A DNA stretch of 10,780 nucleotides from Bacteroidia bacterium (lineage in GTDB: Bacteria > Bacteroidota > Bacteroidia > JAESSM01 > NORP286): NCBI GenBank assembly GCA_016764115.1, contig JAESSM010000232.1, positions 1 to 10,780 of the forward strand, written 5' to 3'. Position 1 is the first letter of the stretch. Each line of letters begins with the position of its first letter. The translations under genes were made by a program, and so were the position numbers. The notes beneath the pieces are model-generated. The model did not search any database and was not told the origin of the DNA. It was given only the letters and a program-made list of their open reading frames with translations. Positions 2,390 to 10,780 of the stretch are shown here, one piece after another.

Positions 2390-3436
2390 TTAGGTTAAGC
2401 TATACTCTACCCCATTATGGGTTACTTTCTGAGCACGGGCATAAGTATATATTTTATCAATAATTTCTACTGTTTTTAAACCCTCAAAACCATTTGTGGC
2501 AATAACCCCCTTGTTTGTAAGTACATCAACAACATTTTCGTAAACTTCTCCATGGTTTGACATTGAGCCTTGATAATGGCCGTAATCATTGGCTGAGTTA
2601 CCCTTAGGCAAATTTGTTATCTCAAAACCTTCGATATTTTGATATTCCAATTCGTTTAAATACTGACCACCAACTTTCACAGTACCTTTTTCACCAAAAA
2701 CAGTAATTGATCCTTCCATATTTTTATTATAGCTATTTACAGTATAACTAAAAGAACCTATTGCTCCACTAAAAAATTCTAGTATAACTGCTCCCGTATC
2801 TTCAAATTCAATGGTATCAAGATGTGCAAAGTTTCCTGTGGCAGCATAAACCTTTTTAACATCACCTAACATCCAATAAATCAAATCAATAAAATGGCTG
2901 AATTGCGTGAATAATGTACCCCCATCTAGCTCTCTAGTACCTTTCCAATCAGAATTATTGTAATAATCGAAATTTCTATTCCAAAAACAATTAACCTGAG
3001 CGCTTAATATTTTACCTAGCTTACCCTCATCAATTGCTTTTTTTAAAGCCGCTACTGGAGGATTAAACCTATTTTGCTTTACTATAAATAAGCGTTTATT
3101 GGCTTTCTCCGCCTCATTGATCATTCTTCCACAATCTACAACCTTTATAGCCATCGGTTTTTCGCATAATACATGGAATCCTGCCCGAAACGCTAGTATA
3201 GAATGCTCTGTATGTAATCCATTTGGTGTACAAATAGAAACAACATCAATTTCGGAATCTTTTAATAATTCATCTATTGAAGTATACGCTGTTGAGGAAT
3301 ATTGCTGGGCTAACTGGTCTGCTTTTGAAGAATCTGTATCGCATACAGCTTTTAAACATCCATTTTTAGAAATGTGTTCTGCATGTCTTTCACCAATTCT
3401 ACCACACCCTACTAAAGCAAAGTTTAGGGAACCCAT
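2390..3436 (-). CDS. Gfo/Idh/MocA-family sugar dehydrogenase, WlbA/WbpB-like
   Basis: NAD(P)-dependent oxidoreductase of 348 residues, probably oxidising C3 of a nucleotide sugar. The N-terminal Rossmann fold shows GCGRIGERHAE at 10-20, CDTD at 32-35 and SICTPNGLHTEHS at 67-79. CEKPMA (91-96) carries the conserved Lys93 of the family. KQNRFNPPVAALK at 120-132 closely resembles WlbA/WbpB proteins, which oxidise UDP-GlcNAc-uronate. DWKGTRELDGGTLF followed by FSHFIDLIYW places the conserved Asp/His residues (His181, Asp184) at the active site. Length is normal and the ATG at 3436 is unambiguous. It starts only 2 bases after the sugar transferase stop, so the two genes are co-transcribed and probably translationally coupled. 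With the aminotransferase at 1-672 it would yield a 3-amino-3-deoxy sugar. The exact substrate is inferred from family resemblance and could be another nucleotide sugar. Confidence 0.85.
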   Translation of the reverse strand: MGSLNFALVGCGRIGERHAEHISKNGCLKAVCDTDSSKADQLAQQYSSTAYTSIDELLKDSEIDVVSICTPNGLHTEHSILAFRAGFHVLCEKPMAIKVVDCGRMINEAEKANKRLFIVKQNRFNPPVAALKKAIDEGKLGKILSAQVNCFWNRNFDYYNNSDWKGTRELDGGTLFTQFSHFIDLIYWMLGDVKKVYAATGNFAHLDTIEFEDTGAVILEFFSGAIGSFSYTVNSYNKNMEGSITVFGEKGTVKVGGQYLNELEYQNIEGFEITNLPKGNSANDYGHYQGSMSNHGEVYENVVDVLTNKGVIATNGFEGLKTVEIIDKIYTYARAQKVTHNGVEYSLT

Positions 3437-3438
3437 AA

Positions 3439-4476
3439 TTAAGTACTTCTTATCTTATTCGCAAGAATATTATAAACGCCCTTGTAGAAGTATTTCAGAT
3501 CAGTGAATATTGGGTGTTGCTTTGAATCCAAAAGATATTGTCTTTCTGCTTCAATCGATTCATCCATACCTTGCATTAGTAAAGCAACATACGGTGGAAT
3601 ACACCCAGGCTTATGGCTTAACCTCATACCCTTAACATCTTCAGGGTAATCATGAAATACCTTTTTACTCAACGGTCTGATGCCAACCAACTTCATTTCA
3701 CCTCTTATTACATTAATAAGTTGAGGAATTTCGTCTATCCAGAACTTCCTAAAGAATCTCCCCCAGGATGTTATTCGAATATCATAGGCTGGTTTACCTA
3801 TATTGCTGTACCCATTCATCTTAAGTATATAATCTTGAAGATACTCTGCATAAGGGTGCATAGTCCTGAATTTATATACATTAATTGTATTTCCGTTTTT
3901 ACCAACTCTTTGCATTTTGAATATAGGGCCATAAGATGGATGAGGATCTGTAGAAGGTTGGGAAACTTTTCTAGTCACAAAATAAGTCAGTCCATTAATC
4001 TCTTTGTAAGTATCAATTTCAAAGCCACAATACACCAAACGTCCTAAAGCTTCAGCCATAGTCAATACCCTGTTTCTCCCATGAGTAATAGAAAAATAAA
4101 TTCTCTTTAGATATGGAAGTTTGGGAATTACTCTTTTGAAAATGAAATCAACAAAATAATATGGACGACTAATAAATCTTGGATATTTATTTAAAATCCT
4201 TCTTCTTCTTAAAAGAAATGTCTCTACGCAACCAATAAAAACGCCTCCGTTTGGTAATTTTGAATTTACTGAGATGAAAAACTTATTGATTCTTTGGATA
4301 TCATTAATACGTTGAAGATTAACGTACGCTTTGTAAGTATCATCATACAAATAATCAACTTCAAATATGGAAACAGTTTTTTGAACTGTCGAAGTTTGAT
4401 GATCCTCCAGATCAACATAGTCGCATATTAAATCATACGCACCTACCCCGGCTTCTTGAATGATTAAGTTTTCCAA
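3439..4476 (-). CDS. Sugar transferase (polyprenyl-phosphate phosphoglycosyltransferase fold) with N-terminal methyltransferase-like domain
   Basis: A 345-residue protein whose C-terminal half (about 181-345) is the bacterial sugar transferase domain: YGPIFKMQRVGKNG, then YKFRTM at 201-206, the catalytic Asp-Glu pair in WIDEIPQLINV (Asp248/Glu249), GEMKLVGIRPLS, and KPGCIPP. Such enzymes load the first sugar phosphate onto undecaprenyl phosphate. The N-terminal half (about 1-170) has no obvious membrane segment. It carries NLQRINDIQRINKFF, LPNGGVFIGCVE and GRLVYCGFEI, a pattern like the C-terminal half of SAM-dependent methyltransferases. The reentrant membrane helix that normally precedes the GP-x-F-x-Q-R motif is not visible. 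The start must be the TTG at 4476: a TAA lies directly before it in frame and no in-frame ATG occurs until residue 140. The preceding 226-base gap suggests that this gene opens a new transcript. Confidence 0.85.
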   Translation of the reverse strand: MENLIIQEAGVGAYDLICDYVDLEDHQTSTVQKTVSIFEVDYLYDDTYKAYVNLQRINDIQRINKFFISVNSKLPNGGVFIGCVETFLLRRRRILNKYPRFISRPYYFVDFIFKRVIPKLPYLKRIYFSITHGRNRVLTMAEALGRLVYCGFEIDTYKEINGLTYFVTRKVSQPSTDPHPSYGPIFKMQRVGKNGNTINVYKFRTMHPYAEYLQDYILKMNGYSNIGKPAYDIRITSWGRFFRKFWIDEIPQLINVIRGEMKLVGIRPLSKKVFHDYPEDVKGMRLSHKPGCIPPYVALLMQGMDESIEAERQYLLDSKQHPIFTDLKYFYKGVYNILANKIRST

Positions 4477-4702: not shown

Positions 4703-5827
4703 TTACATAAAATTAGTACTATAAGAAGGGTCGGATTTTACCTGCTGGGCACTTTCTGGATAATTTTCAACAAACCACACAAAAAAAGAAGTAACGTCTA
4801 TTTTTTCTGAAAGCATTTTATCAGCTCTTTCTCTCCACTTAGGCTTTATATTAGAAACCTCAAGTAATTCTTTAACCTTTTTCATAAGCTTATCAGGGTT
4901 GTTAGTTTTTACACCATAAGTTAAATCATACTGATGCTCTAATTCTTCCAATACACTAATTTCTCCTGCAAAATCACTATACCGAACTGATGGAGTTCCA
5001 AGGATTGCAGCTTCTACAGTCATACTTTGACTATCTCCAACCAGAAGGTTAGCAAAACTTAGCGCATGATGCATAAGGGAAGGATTAATTCTAAATCTGA
5101 ATTGTTCAAACCGAGGAGCTAATTGTCTTTCAGACGATATGTAAACTTTGCCTTTTGGCTGTAATATCTCTAATAAGTTATCCACTAAATTATCATTTAA
5201 GCCCTGAATATTAACATCATGACTCGCAGTTAATGCAGACAATCTCAAGATATAATATGGTCGATCGTTTTCTATTAATTCTGAAACTTTATTAATATCA
5301 GGCTTAAAATAATTTGGATGAAGGTAGGCAAGTTTGTGATAGCCTGCATAACCGATTTTTTTCTTATTATATCTACCATATTCGCAAAGATGAGGTGTAA
5401 GAATATGTGTAGCAAAAGGCAATGTTGGGTGACAAAATTCTGGATGAACAGCTAAATCATCTTCAATAGTTATAATCGAGGGTATACCAGTTACAAAACC
5501 AATGTGAGCTATTGATGGCTCGCTTCCTATCATCAGATCTGGCTTGAAATTCTTTACTATCGGATACAATCGAAAATCCCTTATTAACAAATCATAAAAG
5601 CTATGAGCTAGAATCGAAAATCTATTCTTTTGTCTTTTTTTATTAGCAACACGTTGAATATTTTGGTATTCAAAGCCTTCATTTTTAATAAGCTCTTCTA
5701 AAATATCCTTTTCTTTAATGAGTACCAATAACTTATGTCCATTTTCTTCAAGCCTCTTGATTATATTCTTATATAGATGAAAATGTGCAGGATGTCCTAA
5801 AAAGATTAAAAATTTCTTCATTTTCAA
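4703..5827 (-). CDS. DUF354-family GT-B-like glycosyltransferase/epimerase-related protein
   Basis: A 374-residue cytoplasmic protein with the layout of the DUF354 family, which shares the GT-B fold of UDP-GlcNAc 2-epimerases and glycosyltransferases. The N-terminal domain begins KFLIFLGHPAHFHLYKNII, with the GHPAHFH loop at 11-17, and includes KPDLMIGSEPSIAHIG near 95-110. The C-terminal nucleotide-sugar-binding domain starts around 188 (YYILRLSA, then SHDVNIQGLND), and shows KVYISSE near 227 and the diagnostic GDSQSMTVEAAILGTPSVR at 264-282. Length is typical. No close characterised relative is known to me, so donor and acceptor are unknown. It follows hisF by 42 bases. DUF354 genes recur beside amidation genes in O-antigen and capsule clusters. 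A decayed paralog of the same family lies at 7686-7871 on the other side of hisH/hisF. Confidence 0.85.
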   Translation of the reverse strand: MKMKKFLIFLGHPAHFHLYKNIIKRLEENGHKLLVLIKEKDILEELIKNEGFEYQNIQRVANKKRQKNRFSILAHSFYDLLIRDFRLYPIVKNFKPDLMIGSEPSIAHIGFVTGIPSIITIEDDLAVHPEFCHPTLPFATHILTPHLCEYGRYNKKKIGYAGYHKLAYLHPNYFKPDINKVSELIENDRPYYILRLSALTASHDVNIQGLNDNLVDNLLEILQPKGKVYISSERQLAPRFEQFRFRINPSLMHHALSFANLLVGDSQSMTVEAAILGTPSVRYSDFAGEISVLEELEHQYDLTYGVKTNNPDKLMKKVKELLEVSNIKPKWRERADKMLSEKIDVTSFFVWFVENYPESAQQVKSDPSYSTNFM

Positions 5828-5869: not shown

Positions 5870-6631
5870 TCAATTAAATAATTGCAACAGCTCACTCTGA
5901 GTTGGAAAATTTATCAATACCGCACGTCTTGGTCCATGAAAAACAAACATACTTCCCGCAGCTACCGCAGAAGCATTACCTTTCTCTACTGCTTCCTTGA
6001 AATCATTTAAGCTAGAAGCTCCACCTAAGGCAACCACTGGAACATTTACTGCGTCAGATATCCTCCGAACAAGATTAATATCATAGCCCTCCATCATACC
6101 ATCCCTTTCGACTGAATTAATTAAAATTTCACCAGCACCTTTCTCAGCCATTAACACTGCTAATTCCACCGGATCAATTCCTGTGGCTTTAGTTCCTCCA
6201 TATATATAAGCCTGTTCTTTAGAAAAAAGTTTCTTTTTTACATCTATAGATACTACAATAGTTGAAGTACCAAATTCTTCGGCAGCTTGTCGGATAAAAT
6301 CTGGGTTTTCAACAGCATAAGAATTCAGACAAACTTTTTCAGCCCCTGCATTAAGAATTTTTCTGATACTTTCTATACTGCGAATGCCTCCCCCTACAGC
6401 AAAAGGCATATTACACTCATCTCCAATCCTTTGAACCAATTCAATATCAATCGTTTTTTTCTCCGTTGATGCTGTAATATCAAGAAAAATCAGTTCATCC
6501 GCATTTTTATCATTAAAGATCTTTACAGCATTCATGGGATCACCTACGTATGTGTAATCTTTAAATTTTACAGATTTTACCAATCCGAGGTTTTTAAGTA
6601 AAAGACAAGGTATTACGCGAGGTCTAAACAT
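5870..6631 (-). CDS. wbuZ: HisF-like glycosyl-amidation protein (WbuZ/HisF2)
   Basis: A 253-residue TIM-barrel protein related to the cyclase subunit of imidazole glycerol phosphate synthase, but of the sugar-amidation subfamily. It opens RPRVIPCLLLKNLGLVKSVKF. True HisF has CLDVKDGRVVKG here, so catalytic Asp11 is Leu in this protein, as I recall for WbuZ/WbpI-locus HisF paralogs. The second catalytic Asp is retained in VVSIDVK (Asp130). Phosphate-binding loops VGGGIRS (79-85) and LGGASS (202-207) and the LINSVERDGM segment are intact. With HisH it should form a complex that produces ammonia from glutamine and channels it. In amidation pathways the ammonia goes to the WbuX/WbpG N-acetyl sugar amidotransferase, which is a pseudogene in this window. 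The gene lies 45 bases after hisH and has a promoter-like box in that gap. A role in histidine synthesis is unlikely because no other his genes flank it. Confidence 0.9.
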   Translation of the reverse strand: MFRPRVIPCLLLKNLGLVKSVKFKDYTYVGDPMNAVKIFNDKNADELIFLDITASTEKKTIDIELVQRIGDECNMPFAVGGGIRSIESIRKILNAGAEKVCLNSYAVENPDFIRQAAEEFGTSTIVVSIDVKKKLFSKEQAYIYGGTKATGIDPVELAVLMAEKGAGEILINSVERDGMMEGYDINLVRRISDAVNVPVVALGGASSLNDFKEAVEKGNASAVAAGSMFVFHGPRRAVLINFPTQSELLQLFN

Positions 6632-6656: not shown

Positions 6657-6664
6657 CAAAGCTA
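6657..6664 (-). promoter_or_regulatory. Bacteroidota-type -7 promoter box between hisH and wbuZ
   Basis: The minus strand reads TAGCTTTG, a match to TAnnTTTG, 25 bases before the ATG at 6631. A TTTG lies about 23 bases further upstream, inside the last codons of hisH, at the long end of the spacing accepted for the -33 element. If used, wbuZ and the DUF354 gene could be expressed separately from hisH and the upstream genes. Confidence 0.42.
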
Positions 6665-6676
6665 TAAAAATTCGCT

Positions 6677-7285
6677 TTATATTTTAGCAAAATTTCTAAT
6701 CAGTTCAAGTCCATCTTCATGACTCTTTTCAGGATGGAATTGTGTACCGTAAATATTACCTTTCTGAATACTTGATGTAAATTCAAATTCGTAAGAAGTC
6801 GTGCCAAGTATTTCTGACTGATCAGCACAGCTGACATAATAACTATGTACGAAATAGAAAAGGGAATCATTTGTATGTCCATTCAGTAAAACATTATCTT
6901 TTTGTTTTACAACTGAATTCCATCCCATATGCGGAACTTTAAACTTACTATCTTTATGATTGAACTTCTTAACCTCTCCTTTGATCCATTTTAGCCCTTC
7001 AACATCTCCCTCCTCACTATGATCCAGAAATAATTGCATTCCCAAACATATTCCCAGGATAGGAGTTTTGTCCGTTAAGACTTTTTTTGCTAATGCAGTA
7101 TCTATACCTGATTCCTTAAGTTTACTAATCCCTTTTGCGAAATGACCAACTCCAGGTAAAATTAGCTTAGATGCTTCTTCAATATCCGTTAAGGATTCTG
7201 ATATTTTTGCAGGAACATTGATCTTCTTGAATTTATTCAATACTGATCTTAAATTCCCTAATCCATAATCTACAATTACAATCAT
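6677..7285 (-). CDS. hisH: HisH-like glutamine amidotransferase subunit of the sugar-amidation type
   Basis: A class I glutamine amidotransferase of 202 residues that hydrolyses glutamine and passes ammonia to its HisF partner. It starts MIVIVDYGLGNLRSVLNKF, the usual HisH opening. The oxyanion/binding loop is LPGVGHF (43-49), the nucleophile Cys80 sits in GICLGMQLF, PHMGWN is at 118-123, VHSYYV at 146-151, and the catalytic His184 and Glu186 sit in QFHPEKS. All triad residues are present and the length is normal, so the enzyme should be active. It is followed by wbuZ and preceded, 15 bases away, by the tail of a decayed wbuX, the usual order of an amidation cassette. The symbol denotes the paralog class. 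A separate housekeeping HisH is expected elsewhere in the genome. Confidence 0.92.
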   Translation of the reverse strand: MIVIVDYGLGNLRSVLNKFKKINVPAKISESLTDIEEASKLILPGVGHFAKGISKLKESGIDTALAKKVLTDKTPILGICLGMQLFLDHSEEGDVEGLKWIKGEVKKFNHKDSKFKVPHMGWNSVVKQKDNVLLNGHTNDSLFYFVHSYYVSCADQSEILGTTSYEFEFTSSIQKGNIYGTQFHPEKSHEDGLELIRNFAKI

Positions 7286-7292
7286 ACCAAAG

Positions 7293-7300
7293 CAAAGTTA
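7293..7300 (-). promoter_or_regulatory. Possible -7 promoter box immediately before hisH (weak)
   Basis: The minus strand reads TAACTTTG, matching TAnnTTTG, but only 7 bases before the hisH ATG at 7285. A transcript would begin at or within a few bases of the start codon. It may have gained importance once wbuX decayed, or it may be a chance match. Confidence 0.25.
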
Positions 7301-7690
7301 TCAATCTTTCGCATATTTTTCAAAAAGGATTTTAGGAATTAAATGCATTGCCGCTGCAATTTTCAAAGGTTTTTTGCAGGCCTTAATAATTGAATAATAA
7401 GTAGGATAATCATGATAAGTTTTGAGTGGAGCACTCATAATCTGATCAAATTCTTCCTGAGTAAAACCCAACTTCTTTATCACATATTCAATTAGTTCTT
7501 CTTTATATGGGTAAGGATCTTTAATCTCTTCCAAAACATCTTTGCGTGTTCTTTGTTAAGAACGGACAAGCGCAGAATATTCAACTTTCCTTTTGTACAT
7601 ATTGAATTTTTACGATAAATAATTTGATTGAAAAAAGTGAATATAATGAGATCTATGATGATGCCCTCCGTAATCTTCCCAACCTGTTTC
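7301..7690 (-). pseudogene. wbuX: Decayed C-terminal part of N-acetyl sugar amidotransferase (WbuX/WbpG family)
   Basis: Reading the minus strand in one frame from 7690 gives the last ~130 codons of a WbuX/WbpG-type enzyme, which swaps an N-acetyl group for an acetamidino group using ammonia from HisH/HisF. Matches to the family pattern, from recall, are ETGWEDYGGHHHRS (family: LGWxDYGGKHYES), HFFQSNYL (FFQxYYLP), KRKVEYSALVRS (KRKAHxSSLIxSGQM) and TRKDVLEEI. The intact tail follows: YVIKKLGFTQEEF, then KTYHDYPTYYS and IPKILFEKY. Two in-frame stops interrupt it: TAA at 7610-7612 and TAA at 7556-7558, the latter at the conserved Gly of SGQM. The N-terminal two thirds, with the PP-loop ATP site and Cys ligands, are missing. 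Several conserved residues are substituted (KHYES has become HHHRS). A 77-codon frame with a TTG at 7534 remains open, but it is the tail of this dead gene, not an independent protein. Confidence 0.82.
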
Positions 7691-7871
7691 CATTTTCTTT
7701 AAGTAATTCAATGATATCTAAAATAAGTTTTTGATTCAGCCCCTTTATTCCAAAATCGTGGTAAGCGTTCAGTTTTGAAACACACAAAATGAAATACCTG
7801 TCTTTTCCATTAAGTAAACTTTATATCTTTTGCCTGTCTGGCTTGGCCTTATTGGGATGCACTGGCAGCAT
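7686..7871 (-). pseudogene. Remnant of a second DUF354-family gene, fused to the wbuX remnant
   Basis: One minus-strand frame from about 7808 to 7686 reads GKDRYFILCVSKLNAY, HDFGIKGLNQKL and DIIELLKENGN. This aligns with residues 188-227 of the intact DUF354 protein at 4703-5827 (DRPYYILRLSALTAS, HDVNIQGLND, LLEILQPKGK). By eye, about 18 of 39 positions are identical. Further 5', after a frameshift near 7810-7825, another frame (7859 downward) gives HPNKAKPD, matching HPNYFKPD at 170-177 of the intact copy. The order and spacing of the two matches agree with the intact protein. The remnant ends abruptly around 7686-7692, where the wbuX remnant starts in a different frame, so a deletion junction lies there. 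The N-terminal domain and the GDSQS region are both missing. The 5' limit is uncertain and overlaps the 3' end of the small lipoprotein gene. Confidence 0.72.
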
Positions 7872-8028
7872 CTTTCATACATTTAGCTTTGGCTTTTATA
7901 TTAGCTGCATTGGCCATACACTCACAATAGGTAGAAGTAACTTTCTCAACCTTATATGCTGGGCTGTTGTTGCATGAACTTAAAATCAGTAATCCTATCG
8001 TTGCTGTTAATATTTTGGCTCTATTCAT
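7849..8028 (-). CDS. Small cysteine-containing lipoprotein, 59 residues, function unknown
   Basis: The ATG at 8028 opens a 59-codon frame ending with TAA at 7849-7851. It starts MNRAKILTATIGLLILSSC, a compact lipoprotein signal peptide with a charged n-region, a hydrophobic core and the lipobox LSSC (Cys19). The mature part is short and charged: NNSPAYKVEKV, then TYCECMANAANIKAKAKC, with three further cysteines (35, 37, 50), ending DAASASQ. It should be lipid-anchored in the periplasm or outer membrane. It follows the PIG-L gene by 16 bases and so belongs to that transcript. I do not recognise the family; the C-x-C plus distal C pattern may bind metal or form disulfides. Its last ~20 bases overlap the DUF354 remnant in another frame, so its C-terminus may be newly acquired. 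The opposite strand (7789-7977) is also open but has no such coherent structure. Confidence 0.68.
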   Translation of the reverse strand: MNRAKILTATIGLLILSSCNNSPAYKVEKVTSTYCECMANAANIKAKAKCMKDAASASQ

Positions 8029-8044
8029 TATCGTTAATTGTTAA

Positions 8045-8680
8045 TTAGATGATCCATCTAATATTTTCAAAAGCTTCAGCATAATCAACTCCAATTTGAG
8101 TACCCCTCACTTTTGCCAATCCTTTTATAAAATCATCATCTTTGTAGTTTCTATAATTCTGTGATTCATATTCACTTAGAGCCTTGACTTTTGCCTCCAA
8201 GTGAACATCTTCCAAAATGCAGTGCATATTATTGGTAAATGTAAAACTGTTCCAGGGCATCTCATAACCAACCATTCGTGTATTCTTAAATGCCCTTACA
8301 CCTTCACAATGTATTGTTTGGTGGTCTTGGTGTACATCTTTCGAATTGGGGAGGAAAACCAAATCAGGAGCTATTTGTTTGTTTAAAGCAACTAAGTTTT
8401 CAAGTATCAGCTGCCTGTTTACAGGGAATTCTCTTACAGGATAATCATAAGTGATCAATCTTTCTTCAGTTATTCCTAAATGGGTAATTGACATTTTTAG
8501 TTCTTCGAACAACTTGTTTTCGTCAAACTCACTTTGGAGAGATTTATTACATGGTGAAAAGGCAACATACCAAACCTCACTTCCTGATTCGATTAATTTT
8601 TTAACCGTGCCTCCGCAACCAAACTCAACATCATCAGGGTGTGGTGCAAGCGCAATTACTTTTTTTAATCCTTCTATCAT
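8045..8680 (-). CDS. PIG-L/LmbE-family zinc N-deacetylase
   Basis: A 211-residue protein of the PIG-L family, which removes the acetyl group from N-acetylglucosamine-type sugars in glycolipids, thiols or nucleotide-sugar pathways. Motif 1 is ALAPHPDDVEFGCGG at residues 10-24, giving the expected zinc ligands His14 and Asp17 with Asp16 as general base. Motif 2 is KDVHQDHQTIH at 113-123, with the third zinc ligand His119. DLVFLPNSKD precedes it as in the family, and the C-terminal KALSEYESQ (166-176 region) is also typical. There is no signal peptide, so it acts in the cytoplasm, presumably on a sugar precursor or lipid-linked intermediate. It lies 30 bases after the sulfotransferase and 16 bases before the small lipoprotein. 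The specific substrate cannot be read from the sequence. Confidence 0.9.
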   Translation of the reverse strand: MIEGLKKVIALAPHPDDVEFGCGGTVKKLIESGSEVWYVAFSPCNKSLQSEFDENKLFEELKMSITHLGITEERLITYDYPVREFPVNRQLILENLVALNKQIAPDLVFLPNSKDVHQDHQTIHCEGVRAFKNTRMVGYEMPWNSFTFTNNMHCILEDVHLEAKVKALSEYESQNYRNYKDDDFIKGLAKVRGTQIGVDYAEAFENIRWII

Positions 8681-8710: not shown

Positions 8711-9583
8711 CTAATTTTCTGTATCATAGCCAACTTTATTCATAATTGGACCAAATTTATCATAAAGCAAACTCAAGCTTTCTGCATCAAAATGTTCTTT
8801 CCATTCCTCAGCATTACCCTGTCTTATAAATGGAATTGAAGTATCAATTTTCATTTTTTCATGAAGCTCTTTTCTTTCATTATTAAACTTCTTCATGTTT
8901 TCGATAGAACTGTATTCAATCGCTTTTTCTATCAGATACTCATCCTTTTTAAGGTCAAAAAAATCTGCAATTTTGTTCAATGCTAAACTAGTATTTGTTC
9001 TAAGGTCCTCATATTTTATAAGTAAAAATCTATTATCGTCATGACCAATGCCTCCTATCCAACTACCAACATGCTCTTCCCATGAACCAAAATTGGAATA
9101 AATACCCTGACTGTATTTCCCATGAATAAAATCTTTCAAATAATCTTTGAAAATTATATTTTCTGGTATTCTTTTATCCCTTTTCAATAAATAATAATAG
9201 GAAACTGCAACACTTCTAGGATCACGTACCAGATATACCACTCTCTTATACCGGGGATCAAAAACTTCATGACTCTTAAGTACTCTTGGAGAACTAATTG
9301 AATCTATTCTGTTTGACAATTTAAAATCTTCAATAGAACCAACTATTTTCCAATAAGTACTATTGGTCAAAGGTTTATCTTCTTTGTTTATTAAATTAGC
9401 AACAAGAAAACGAGTCCATGTATTTCCACTTCTGGGATAGGAAACTATCATATTATCGTCAGCCCTAATTTCGTGTAATCGAGATTTTACAGGATAAATT
9501 CTAAGGCCGGTAAATCGATATAATATCTGATTTACTCTTTCAAAGAGCAGAACTTTCTTTTTTAAACTATCCGTTAAATGCAT
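8711..9583 (-). CDS. PAPS-dependent carbohydrate sulfotransferase
   Basis: A 290-residue soluble sulfotransferase of the Sulfotransfer_1 type that moves sulfate from PAPS to an acceptor, here probably a sugar hydroxyl or amine. The 5'-phosphosulfate loop is VSYPRSGNTWTRFLVANL (47-64). The catalytic-base segment is VLKSHEVF with His105. The 3'-phosphate-binding motif is VVYLVRDPRSVAVSYYY (115-131). LLIKYEDLRTNTSLALNKI follows at 187-205, and the C-terminal PAPS-contacting segment is FIRQGNAEEWKEHF (252-265), a variant of the usual RKG..G.WK. All core motifs are present and length is normal. The ATG at 9583 starts 3 bases after the stop of the deacetylase-like gene, implying coupled translation. 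It implies that the genome can make PAPS, and that the product may be a sulfated glycan or glycolipid. Confidence 0.9.
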   Translation of the reverse strand: MHLTDSLKKKVLLFERVNQILYRFTGLRIYPVKSRLHEIRADDNMIVSYPRSGNTWTRFLVANLINKEDKPLTNSTYWKIVGSIEDFKLSNRIDSISSPRVLKSHEVFDPRYKRVVYLVRDPRSVAVSYYYLLKRDKRIPENIIFKDYLKDFIHGKYSQGIYSNFGSWEEHVGSWIGGIGHDDNRFLLIKYEDLRTNTSLALNKIADFFDLKKDEYLIEKAIEYSSIENMKKFNNERKELHEKMKIDTSIPFIRQGNAEEWKEHFDAESLSLLYDKFGPIMNKVGYDTEN

Positions 9584-9586
9584 TCC

Positions 9587-10780
9587 CTAACAATAATCTT
9601 CAGCCAACTGCTTATCGCTAACATTCTCAAAATGATTATCTCTCATATATTCCAAAATCATCTTATAAACGTCTTTATATCCCTTAAACTTATAATCACT
9701 GAAGAATTTATTGTGCCATAATATTGAAAACATAGTATTCTCCTTATTCGATTCGAGAAAATCCATGACATTCTTACCTGCACTTTCCGAGGAAAGTTTT
9801 TGGTAATGCCATAACGATGCATCCATCACGTGCAAAGGTATTGAAACTACATCCAATTGTCTATTTAAATCCATATCAAATGGCTTAAAAGGCATTGAAT
9901 AACTATTTCGAAACCCTGTTATTTCAACAAAGCCCAAACTGAAGTCCATTTTAATGCCTGCCTCTTCCATTTCTCGTAAAGAGTCAGGTATTTTTATTTT
10001 TAAAAAGTGATTTCTGTTCAGCACTGTTGCCCAACCAAGTTTCTCCAATTCAATACCATACGAATCATTGGAAAAGCTCTTATGCAAACCATTGTTAAAC
10101 CCTCTTCTTTCAATTTCTTTAATTAAGGCCTGTACTTTGGTGCTTTTTATATCGTAATCCGCATTATGCACGGTTCCATGGACTTTCCCTTGATTCACCA
10201 ACCAGAAAAATGTTGATCTCACTCCAAACTGATCTTCAATGTCCATAATCTTATTCAGATTGAGCCAATTTGATTTTCCAATCATTTCATTGTACAACAA
10301 TTTTAGTAGAACATCCAATCTAAACTTTTTGATTGCATAAAATCCATCTTGAAACAAGGAGCCATAAAATGTATCATTGTCATGAGAAACAAAGAACTTA
10401 TTGCGATGATGAGGTCTTTTGTAATGAGAATTAATTTGGGGTAACTGATCATACAGTTTATCGAAATACTGTGCTACTAGATTTTGATTTATACAATTAT
10501 ATTTATGCTGATAGCTATCTCTGTAACTAAAACGTCCATGTTGATCTGATTTCTCCTCACCATACTCTTGTAAACAATTGATCATATAGAAACTTGTAGA
10601 GAGATAATCAGGTTTATTCTCTTTATTGTAGATCAATGGTTCTTTTTCAAAGAAATTTGTAAAAGAGAATGTTTTTGAATTTAAATTGCCAATGAACTTT
10701 TCGGAAATCTGCACATCCCCGCTTTCATTAGAACTTATTGTTATATCCGAGTCATTTTCAACAAAATCTGATTCAAAACC
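9587..10780 (-). CDS. Polysaccharide-deacetylase-like protein (probably DUF7033 type), 5' end outside the window
   Basis: The frame ending with TAG at 9587-9589 stays open to the window edge, giving 397 residues. The GTG at 10714 is inside the gene and should not be taken as the start: 22 more codons (GFESDFVEND... GDV) precede it in frame. The NodB-like core begins FFVSHDNDTFYG, with the HDND metal/catalytic motif at 10373-10384, then RSTFFWLV. A motif-2-like GLHKSFSND follows, its His codon at 10082-10084. Next come KMDFSLGFVEITGFRNSYSMPF and a late ILWHNKFFSDYKF. This order (HDxD, STFF, GLHxS, DFSLGF..GFR, PF) matches Bacteroidota polysaccharide-deacetylase-like proteins that carry an N-terminal DUF7033 domain. 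They are presumed to deacetylate or otherwise modify a polysaccharide; the exact reaction is not established. It is followed 3 bases later by the sulfotransferase. Confidence 0.8.
   Translation of the reverse strand, partial: GFESDFVENDSDITISSNESGDVQISEKFIGNLNSKTFSFTNFFEKEPLIYNKENKPDYLSTSFYMINCLQEYGEEKSDQHGRFSYRDSYQHKYNCINQNLVAQYFDKLYDQLPQINSHYKRPHHRNKFFVSHDNDTFYGSLFQDGFYAIKKFRLDVLLKLLYNEMIGKSNWLNLNKIMDIEDQFGVRSTFFWLVNQGKVHGTVHNADYDIKSTKVQALIKEIERRGFNNGLHKSFSNDSYGIELEKLGWATVLNRNHFLKIKIPDSLREMEEAGIKMDFSLGFVEITGFRNSYSMPFKPFDMDLNRQLDVVSIPLHVMDASLWHYQKLSSESAGKNVMDFLESNKENTMFSILWHNKFFSDYKFKGYKDVYKMILEYMRDNHFENVSDKQLAEDYC

Follow-up and report, generated by a model that had tools for sequence, protein, structure and literature searches.

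In the WbpG/HisH2/HisF2 set of Pseudomonas and the WbuX/WbuY/WbuZ set of Escherichia coli, the surface-sugar gene cluster encodes an amidotransferase alongside subunits of the HisH and HisF2 types; as far as its gene content is considered here, it also includes a Gfo/Idh dehydrogenase, a DegT aminotransferase, and a glycosyltransferase. The two subunits belong to the same families as imidazole glycerol phosphate synthase of histidine synthesis, in which HisH contributes a glutaminase triad and ammonia is channelled to HisF. The reaction and motifs of WbuX and the roles of WbpG and WbuX are described in PMC10607449, from which we took the tetracysteine and SGGxDS motifs as criteria for WbuX. 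Extra copies of hisH2 and hisF2 outside the histidine operon are described for some Bacteroidota and one member of the Chlorobiota (PMC8305728). A literature search that covered few subscription papers returned no report of HisH/HisF2 supplying WbuX in trans or of a nitrilase as a partner of WbuX.

The window analyzed here is an entire contig (C209) of 10,780 nt from a Bacteroidia assembly of 2.09 Mb in 244 contigs, which is about 69% complete, so that the lists of linkages and partners given below are partial. With the Pseudomonas and E. coli sets, the window shares the HisH and HisF2-type subunits, the dehydrogenase, the aminotransferase, and a glycosyltransferase; unlike in those sets, its amidotransferase is dead, and directly next to it lies what is left of a DUF354-type glycosyltransferase (GT354). 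As in the pairs of PMC8305728, its hisH and hisF2 lie outside a histidine operon, whereas for those pairs the available part of the paper gives no sugar role and does not mention wbuX. The order GT354, WbuX, HisH, HisF2, GT354 recurs identically in a cassette of the Bacteroidales MAG fen_974 (L063, PLNT01000017.1), whose HisF2 is 65% identical to that of the window and which differs in that GT354 and WbuX form one intact protein of 752 aa. With moderate confidence, we interpret the window as containing such a cassette in a decayed state, GT354 and WbuX having been either fused or adjacent, with the HisH-HisF2 pair kept, most likely to supply a WbuX encoded elsewhere in trans.

Gene content of the window

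On the minus strand, the genes are arranged in the order VimE/DUF7033-like deacetylase, sulfotransferase, PIG-L deacetylase, a 59-aa frame, the decayed stretch, hisH, hisF2, GT354, initiating sugar transferase, Gfo/Idh dehydrogenase, a 538-aa protein without any Pfam or NCBIfam match, and DegT aminotransferase (Table 1). Judging from the family names, this is a surface-sugar cluster whose enzymes fit the synthesis of a 2,3-diamino sugar. Homologues of the PIG-L deacetylase, 46–59% identical to that of the window, recur at the hisF2/wbuX loci named in Table 1, among which L036 is the same record as L081. The 59-aa frame, for which no Pfam match was found, may be either a small gene or a chance open frame. 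Sites resembling what we take to be the Bacteroidota promoter consensus precede hisH and hisF2; the window contains three such sites compared with 1.03 expected, and 18 of 200 shuffles reach three, which makes them weak evidence.

Table 1. Coordinates of genes, remnants, and sites in the window
Feature	Position	Strand	Evidence and remarks
DUF7033/VimE-like sugar deacetylase	9587..10714	-	NF053580 84.5 bits, below cut-off 440; PF23019
Sulfotransferase	8711..9583	-	PF00685
PIG-L family deacetylase, upstream of remnant	8045..8680	-	PF02585; homologues close to hisF2/wbuX in L036, L070, L074, L086
59-aa lipoprotein-like frame, between PIG-L gene and pseudogene	7849..8028	-	Open frame; 23-nt overlap with GT354 remnant
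DUF354-type glycosyltransferase remnant (model 154-215 of 358)	7689..7871	-	Two profiles; other frame, abuts wbuX remnant
wbuX remnant, C-terminal third (model ~250-344 plus tail)	7301..7696	-	TIGR03573; two in-frame TAA
In-frame TAA stop	7610..7612	-	Translation
In-frame TAA stop	7556..7558	-	Translation
Promoter-like site, Bacteroidota type, just before hisH	7293..7324	-	TTTG-N20-TANNTTTG; overlaps wbuX remnant end
hisH (HisH2), glutaminase subunit, intact	6677..7285	-	TIGR01855 237.2 bits; Cys80/His184/Glu186
Promoter-like site, Bacteroidota type, before hisF2	6657..6691	-	N23; consensus as for hisH site
hisF2 (WbuZ/AglZ type), intact	5870..6631	-	NF038364 356.7 bits, cut-off 310; Asp130 kept, Leu11
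DUF354-type glycosyltransferase (GT354), intact, after hisF2	4703..5827	-	PF04007; hisH-hisF2-GT354 order as in L063
Bacterial sugar transferase (initiating transferase)	3439..4476	-	PF02397
Gfo/Idh/MocA sugar dehydrogenase	2390..3436	-	Family match; WbpB/WlbA-like role inferred
DegT-family sugar aminotransferase, cut by contig end	1..672	-	PF01041; WbpE/WlbC-like role inferred

Remnants of WbuX and of a glycosyltransferase

The original prediction had described the sequence upstream of hisH as a C-terminal wbuX fragment that lacks the N-terminal two thirds and is broken by two in-frame TAA stops. Translation of the minus strand confirmed both stops in the WbuX-like frame. In a profile search of the genome, TIGR03573 matched nucleotides 7436–7696, with model positions 250–343 of 344 (E 2.3e-8) and with both stops inside the match; for positions 1–249, no match was reported at this locus. 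The score of 33.9 bits compares with a family cut-off of 203.2 bits. With a second, mixed profile of 17 proteins (GT354-WbuX proteins and others picked for PF04007, some of them apparently tandem GT354), the WbuX-remnant frame scored 114 bits, far beyond chance. The truncated 77-aa frame at 7304–7534 clusters, at 90% identity, with one other sequence; two contigs are involved, the longest of 15,447 bp, and a truncated frame of this kind is therefore recorded on a second contig.

The conserved columns were less informative. A first count over 54 WbuX rows left just five columns at 90% conservation, of which the remnant keeps two, and these are too few; the count was redone on 52 rows realigned without the distant rows L053 and L100:6193. 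Here, the remnant keeps 21 of 29 columns at 75% conservation, 15 of 22 at 80%, 7 of 11 at 90%, and 2 of 3 at 95%, and 6, 4, 4, and 0 of the 52 rows, respectively, keep less. When each row was left out in turn, the median share of columns kept at the 80% level was 95%. Because four of the 52 WbuX rows, including an intact WbuX on contig C130 of the same assembly, keep fewer of these columns than the remnant, column loss alone is no proof of death. The case for a dead gene is carried by the stops and the absent ATP-binding part more than by the column count. Taken together, wbuX at this locus is a real pseudogene, and its amidotransferase is dead. The decay is of an ordinary kind, inside a mosaic sugar cluster.

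The description of the upstream stretch as a wbuX fragment was correct for the wbuX part and incomplete, as nucleotides 7871–7689 are a GT354 remnant. This remnant is a new finding, and the decayed stretch reaches back to position 7871. With a six-row GT354 profile, in which two rows are one record under two ids and one row is the window's own GT354, it scored 36.6 bits, and none of 500 shuffled sequences (two-base blocks) exceeded 5.5; with the mixed profile, it scored 20.1 bits. In the mixed profile, the GT354 match covers positions 155–212 and the WbuX match positions 618–757 of 759, so that about 405 positions, or about 1.2 kb, are missing between them. The two remnants abut in the order of the fusion and in different frames across the deletion, an arrangement that would also suit two adjacent separate genes. 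The best single matches of the GT remnant are tandem-like GT354 proteins, such as P0026 (E 2e-6), which looks like a tandem GT354 and is matched twice, rather than the L063 fusion (E 0.002); a fusion before the decay is therefore unproven. The deletion of about 1.2 kb would thus have cut either one fused gene or two adjacent ones. GT354-WbuX fusions recur: in a protein search that scored the 7994 candidates sharing most words, P0001 to P0009, of which P0001 is L063's own protein, aligned over 97–100% of the L063 fusion.

In a tree of 63 rows, from which repeats, four distant rows, the C119 WbuX, and short pieces had been left out, the remnant groups with the WbuX of L076, L063, and L044 (support 97/88, the bootstrap not being fully settled). 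By tree path, the nearest rows to the HisF2 of the window are L062, L026 (from G086, the genome of L044), and L063. Given this agreement, the WbuX remnant and the hisH/hisF2 pair were probably once parts of one cassette.

HisH and HisF2

The original prediction of an intact HisH with Cys80, His184, and Glu186 and an intact WbuZ/HisF2 with Asp130 held when the residues were counted on the sequences. HisH exceeds the TIGR01855 cut-off of 105.4 bits and has the complete Cys-His-Glu triad, and HisF2 exceeds the curated cut-off of the AglZ/HisF2 acetamidino family. Together they comprise 1371 nt of open frame. HisH keeps 50 of 50, and HisF2 55 of 56, of the columns that show at least 90% conservation among their respective 47 relatives, and both look functional. 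The nearest HisF2 is just 71% identical (the two closest named HisF2 records, at 71% and 65%, are from Bacteroidales MAGs), so that the conserved columns cannot reveal selection after the loss of wbuX, and synonymous sites are expected to be saturated.

In contrast to HisF of histidine synthesis, the window's HisF2 stays below the TIGR00735 cut-off (241.3 versus 294.55 bits) and has Leu at position 11. Across a HisF set of 60 rows, seven of which repeat records that occur under two ids, Asp occurs at this position in none, Leu in 55, and Q, T, T, V, and one gap in the others; the lack of Asp at this cyclase position is what we take to be the mark of the acetamidino-type HisF2. In the source assembly, neither a hisD match nor a further HisF-profile match above 30 bits was found. 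A role of the pair in histidine synthesis was rejected on the basis of Leu11 and the lack of a hisD match in this assembly.

Further WbuX proteins in the assembly

The suggestion that a second WbuX might be encoded elsewhere was borne out by the profile search of the contigs, which revealed two further matches over the TIGR03573 cut-off in the same assembly. On contig C119, WbuX is fused behind a VimE/DUF7033-like deacetylase domain and breaks off at model position 181, where the contig ends; this partial protein scored 206.4 bits in the genome profile search and 202.2 bits with hmmscan, on either side of the cut-off. P0110, a protein of 809 aa encoded on a 77-kb contig, is 99% identical to it, represents the complete form, and carries the tetracysteine and SGGxDS motifs. 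The WbuX part of the C119 protein is 60–62% identical over 207 aa to the WbuX parts of the GT4-WbuX fusions of G086 and G003; with the fusion of G049 the value is 45%, in an alignment that runs into other parts. In the tree, it falls into a 26-row group (97/96) that mixes unlinked and linked WbuX, its nearest place being with a WbuX of G046 (weak support, 90/71). The search for an intact wbuX in the rest of the genome found one on contig C130: it encodes a WbuX of 385 aa that scores 207.9 bits and adjoins a nitrilase-like hydrolase.

Fused and nitrilase-linked WbuX

WbuX is found fused behind different enzymes, namely a VimE/DUF7033-like deacetylase, a GT4 or DUF354 glycosyltransferase, or a part without family match (L056), which is probably a glycosyltransferase; examples include L025 (2–1927), L045–L047, L056, L063, P0062, P0074, P0086, and others. 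Database proteins of 650–690 aa whose alignment spans about half of the query contain the HisF domain PF00977.

In 149 genomes searched (E at most 1e-30), a nitrilase-like CN hydrolase was found in six, and in five of these it lies directly beside WbuX, at L024 (G000:C130, 194–2212), G026:C16, G119:C178, G090:C17, and G041:C197; no WbuX was found beside the sixth, at G123:C57. The five nitrilase-linked WbuX form one clade (100/98). Glu, Lys, and Cys, presumably the key nitrilase residues, are kept in all six sequences. NAD synthetase offers an analogue of a nitrilase-type glutaminase partner, and by this analogy the nitrilase-like enzyme may take the place of HisH/HisF as a glutaminase partner. 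This pair is a more surprising lead than the pseudogene of the window.

Linkage of HisF2 and WbuX in relatives

To assess linkage, 148 relatives, which have only the class in common with the source assembly, were surveyed, and WbuX was counted at 100 bits or more. HisF2 loci over the NF038364 cut-off numbered 38, in 37 genomes. WbuX lies within 2 kb of 26 of these loci and at 9.95–19.6 kb from four; eight have none on the contig, one of them being on a 4.3-kb contig and so uninformative. The view that a retained HisH/HisF pair without an adjacent WbuX is unusual is thus not supported, since WbuX is likewise separate from HisF2 at 12 of the 38 loci. Each of the 37 genomes has a WbuX match that reaches 100 bits (over the family cut-off in 35, below it in G070 and G095), while any WbuX match at E 1e-3 was present in 34 of the 111 genomes without an over-cut-off HisF2.

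In both G003 and G049, the single WbuX match and the single over-cut-off HisF2, the latter with HisH beside it, are on different contigs, which is the arrangement that we propose for the window. Trans supply is not a clean fit for three of the 12 unlinked loci: in G119 (87% complete), the sole over-cut-off WbuX is the nitrilase-linked one, besides one of 127 bits; the sole WbuX of G070 (143 bits) belongs to a remote branch; and that of G095 is a contig-end fragment of 104 bits. On a HisF2 tree of 54 rows (10 unlinked, 41 linked, 3 unlabelled), the unlinked state requires at least seven changes, a minimum that depends on labelling L061, L059, and L106 (WbuX 4.8–10.2 kb away) as linked and L026 and L039 (11–20 kb) as unlinked; 17 of 500 label shuffles gave values as low as seven. 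Altogether, the separation of HisF2 and WbuX is recurrent, not rare, and compatible with function in trans.

Several loci had individual features. The hisF2 nearest to that of the window (71%; L062, 4798–5562, in G149), with no hisH or WbuX within 15.5 kb, stands by inspection among uvrB- and rmuC-looking genes; its genome has hisH2 on another contig and WbuX matches on four contigs. The pairs of G031 and G070 stand, likewise by inspection, among genes without an evident sugar role. At L049 (G046:C22, 6872–10315), a frame that by inspection resembles asparagine synthase, a possible other user of ammonia, directly precedes hisH and hisF2. In G056 (C1:3288279-3289023), hisF2 is split into two adjacent frames (residues 1–121 and 121–248) beside a full-length WbuX, which reflects either damage of the opposite kind or a frameshift from sequencing.

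Possible roles of the retained pair

In our interpretation, a frame-shifting deletion of about 1.2 kb took away the C-terminal portion of the glycosyltransferase together with the N-terminal, ATP-binding two thirds of WbuX. The beginning of the glycosyltransferase is missing as well, and the remaining sequence contains two nonsense changes; the order of these events is a reconstruction. HisH would still hydrolyze glutamine, and HisF2, without the cyclase Asp11, would merely channel the ammonia to a WbuX encoded elsewhere, which would use it to make an acetamidino group from the N-acetyl group of a sugar. The best candidate partner is the deacetylase-WbuX fusion on C119, and the pair probably supplies ammonia in trans to a fusion of this type. 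Such supply is the likely reason why hisH and hisF2 stayed intact.

The original prediction had offered two alternatives, ammonia supply to a WbuX elsewhere and a recent loss of the acetamidino group. The first agrees with the present results; the second, a recent total loss, is less likely given the other WbuX copies in the assembly. That wbuX was lost lately, leaving hisH and hisF2 as jobless passengers that have not yet decayed, is the alternative that survives best, and we regard it as unlikely. The remnant is 57.8% identical to the WbuX of L076, much as L076 is to L044 and L063 over the same region (57.4 and 56.6%), and its end branch (0.47, median 0.41) is not unusual, both of which speak for recent decay. 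However, two further WbuX genes are present in the assembly, the frames of both hisH and hisF2 are open with their key residues kept, and unlinked pairs recur among the relatives.

Alternatively, the pair might serve the nitrilase-adjacent WbuX of C130, alone or additionally. This protein is intact and over the family cut-off, its clade lies within a 13-row set (98/90) that includes the remnant, and G119 combines an unlinked HisH/HisF2 with a nitrilase-linked WbuX as its sole over-cut-off one. However, the nitrilase neighboring this clade, with its conserved Glu, Lys, and Cys, may supply ammonia of its own, and the C130 WbuX keeps just 14 of 28 columns conserved at 75%, so we consider this option rather improbable. 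An acceptor enzyme of a non-WbuX kind is more doubtful still: the unlinked pair of G046 directly follows the asparagine-synthase-like frame, but no such neighbor was seen by inspection at L026, L027, L030, L048, or L057, and WbuX matches accompany HisF2 in all 37 relatives. That the stops and the deletion are assembly errors hiding a full-length gene is hardly credible, for although the assembly is fragmented, a 77-aa frame of the same cluster lies on a second, longer contig, and the damage comprises two separate stops, lost conserved residues, and a missing middle.

Implications

Beyond trans supply in this one assembly, we tentatively propose, as a possibility, that HisH-HisF2 is a free-standing ammonia module for WbuX proteins whose genes lie elsewhere; several such proteins are fusions with enzymes of neighboring steps (a deacetylase, GT4, DUF354 or another glycosyltransferase). 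A single genome would then feed sugar amidation by two routes: the deacetylase-WbuX fusion would draw on HisH/HisF2 in trans, and the C130 WbuX on a partner of the nitrilase type. The results suggest that an ammonia-supplying pair can outlive the adjacent amidotransferase. They also suggest that a hisH2/hisF2 pair in a cluster is no proof of acetamidino-sugar synthesis by that cluster and that, conversely, a WbuX without neighboring hisH/hisF is not necessarily dead, which bears on the prediction of sugar structures from gene clusters.
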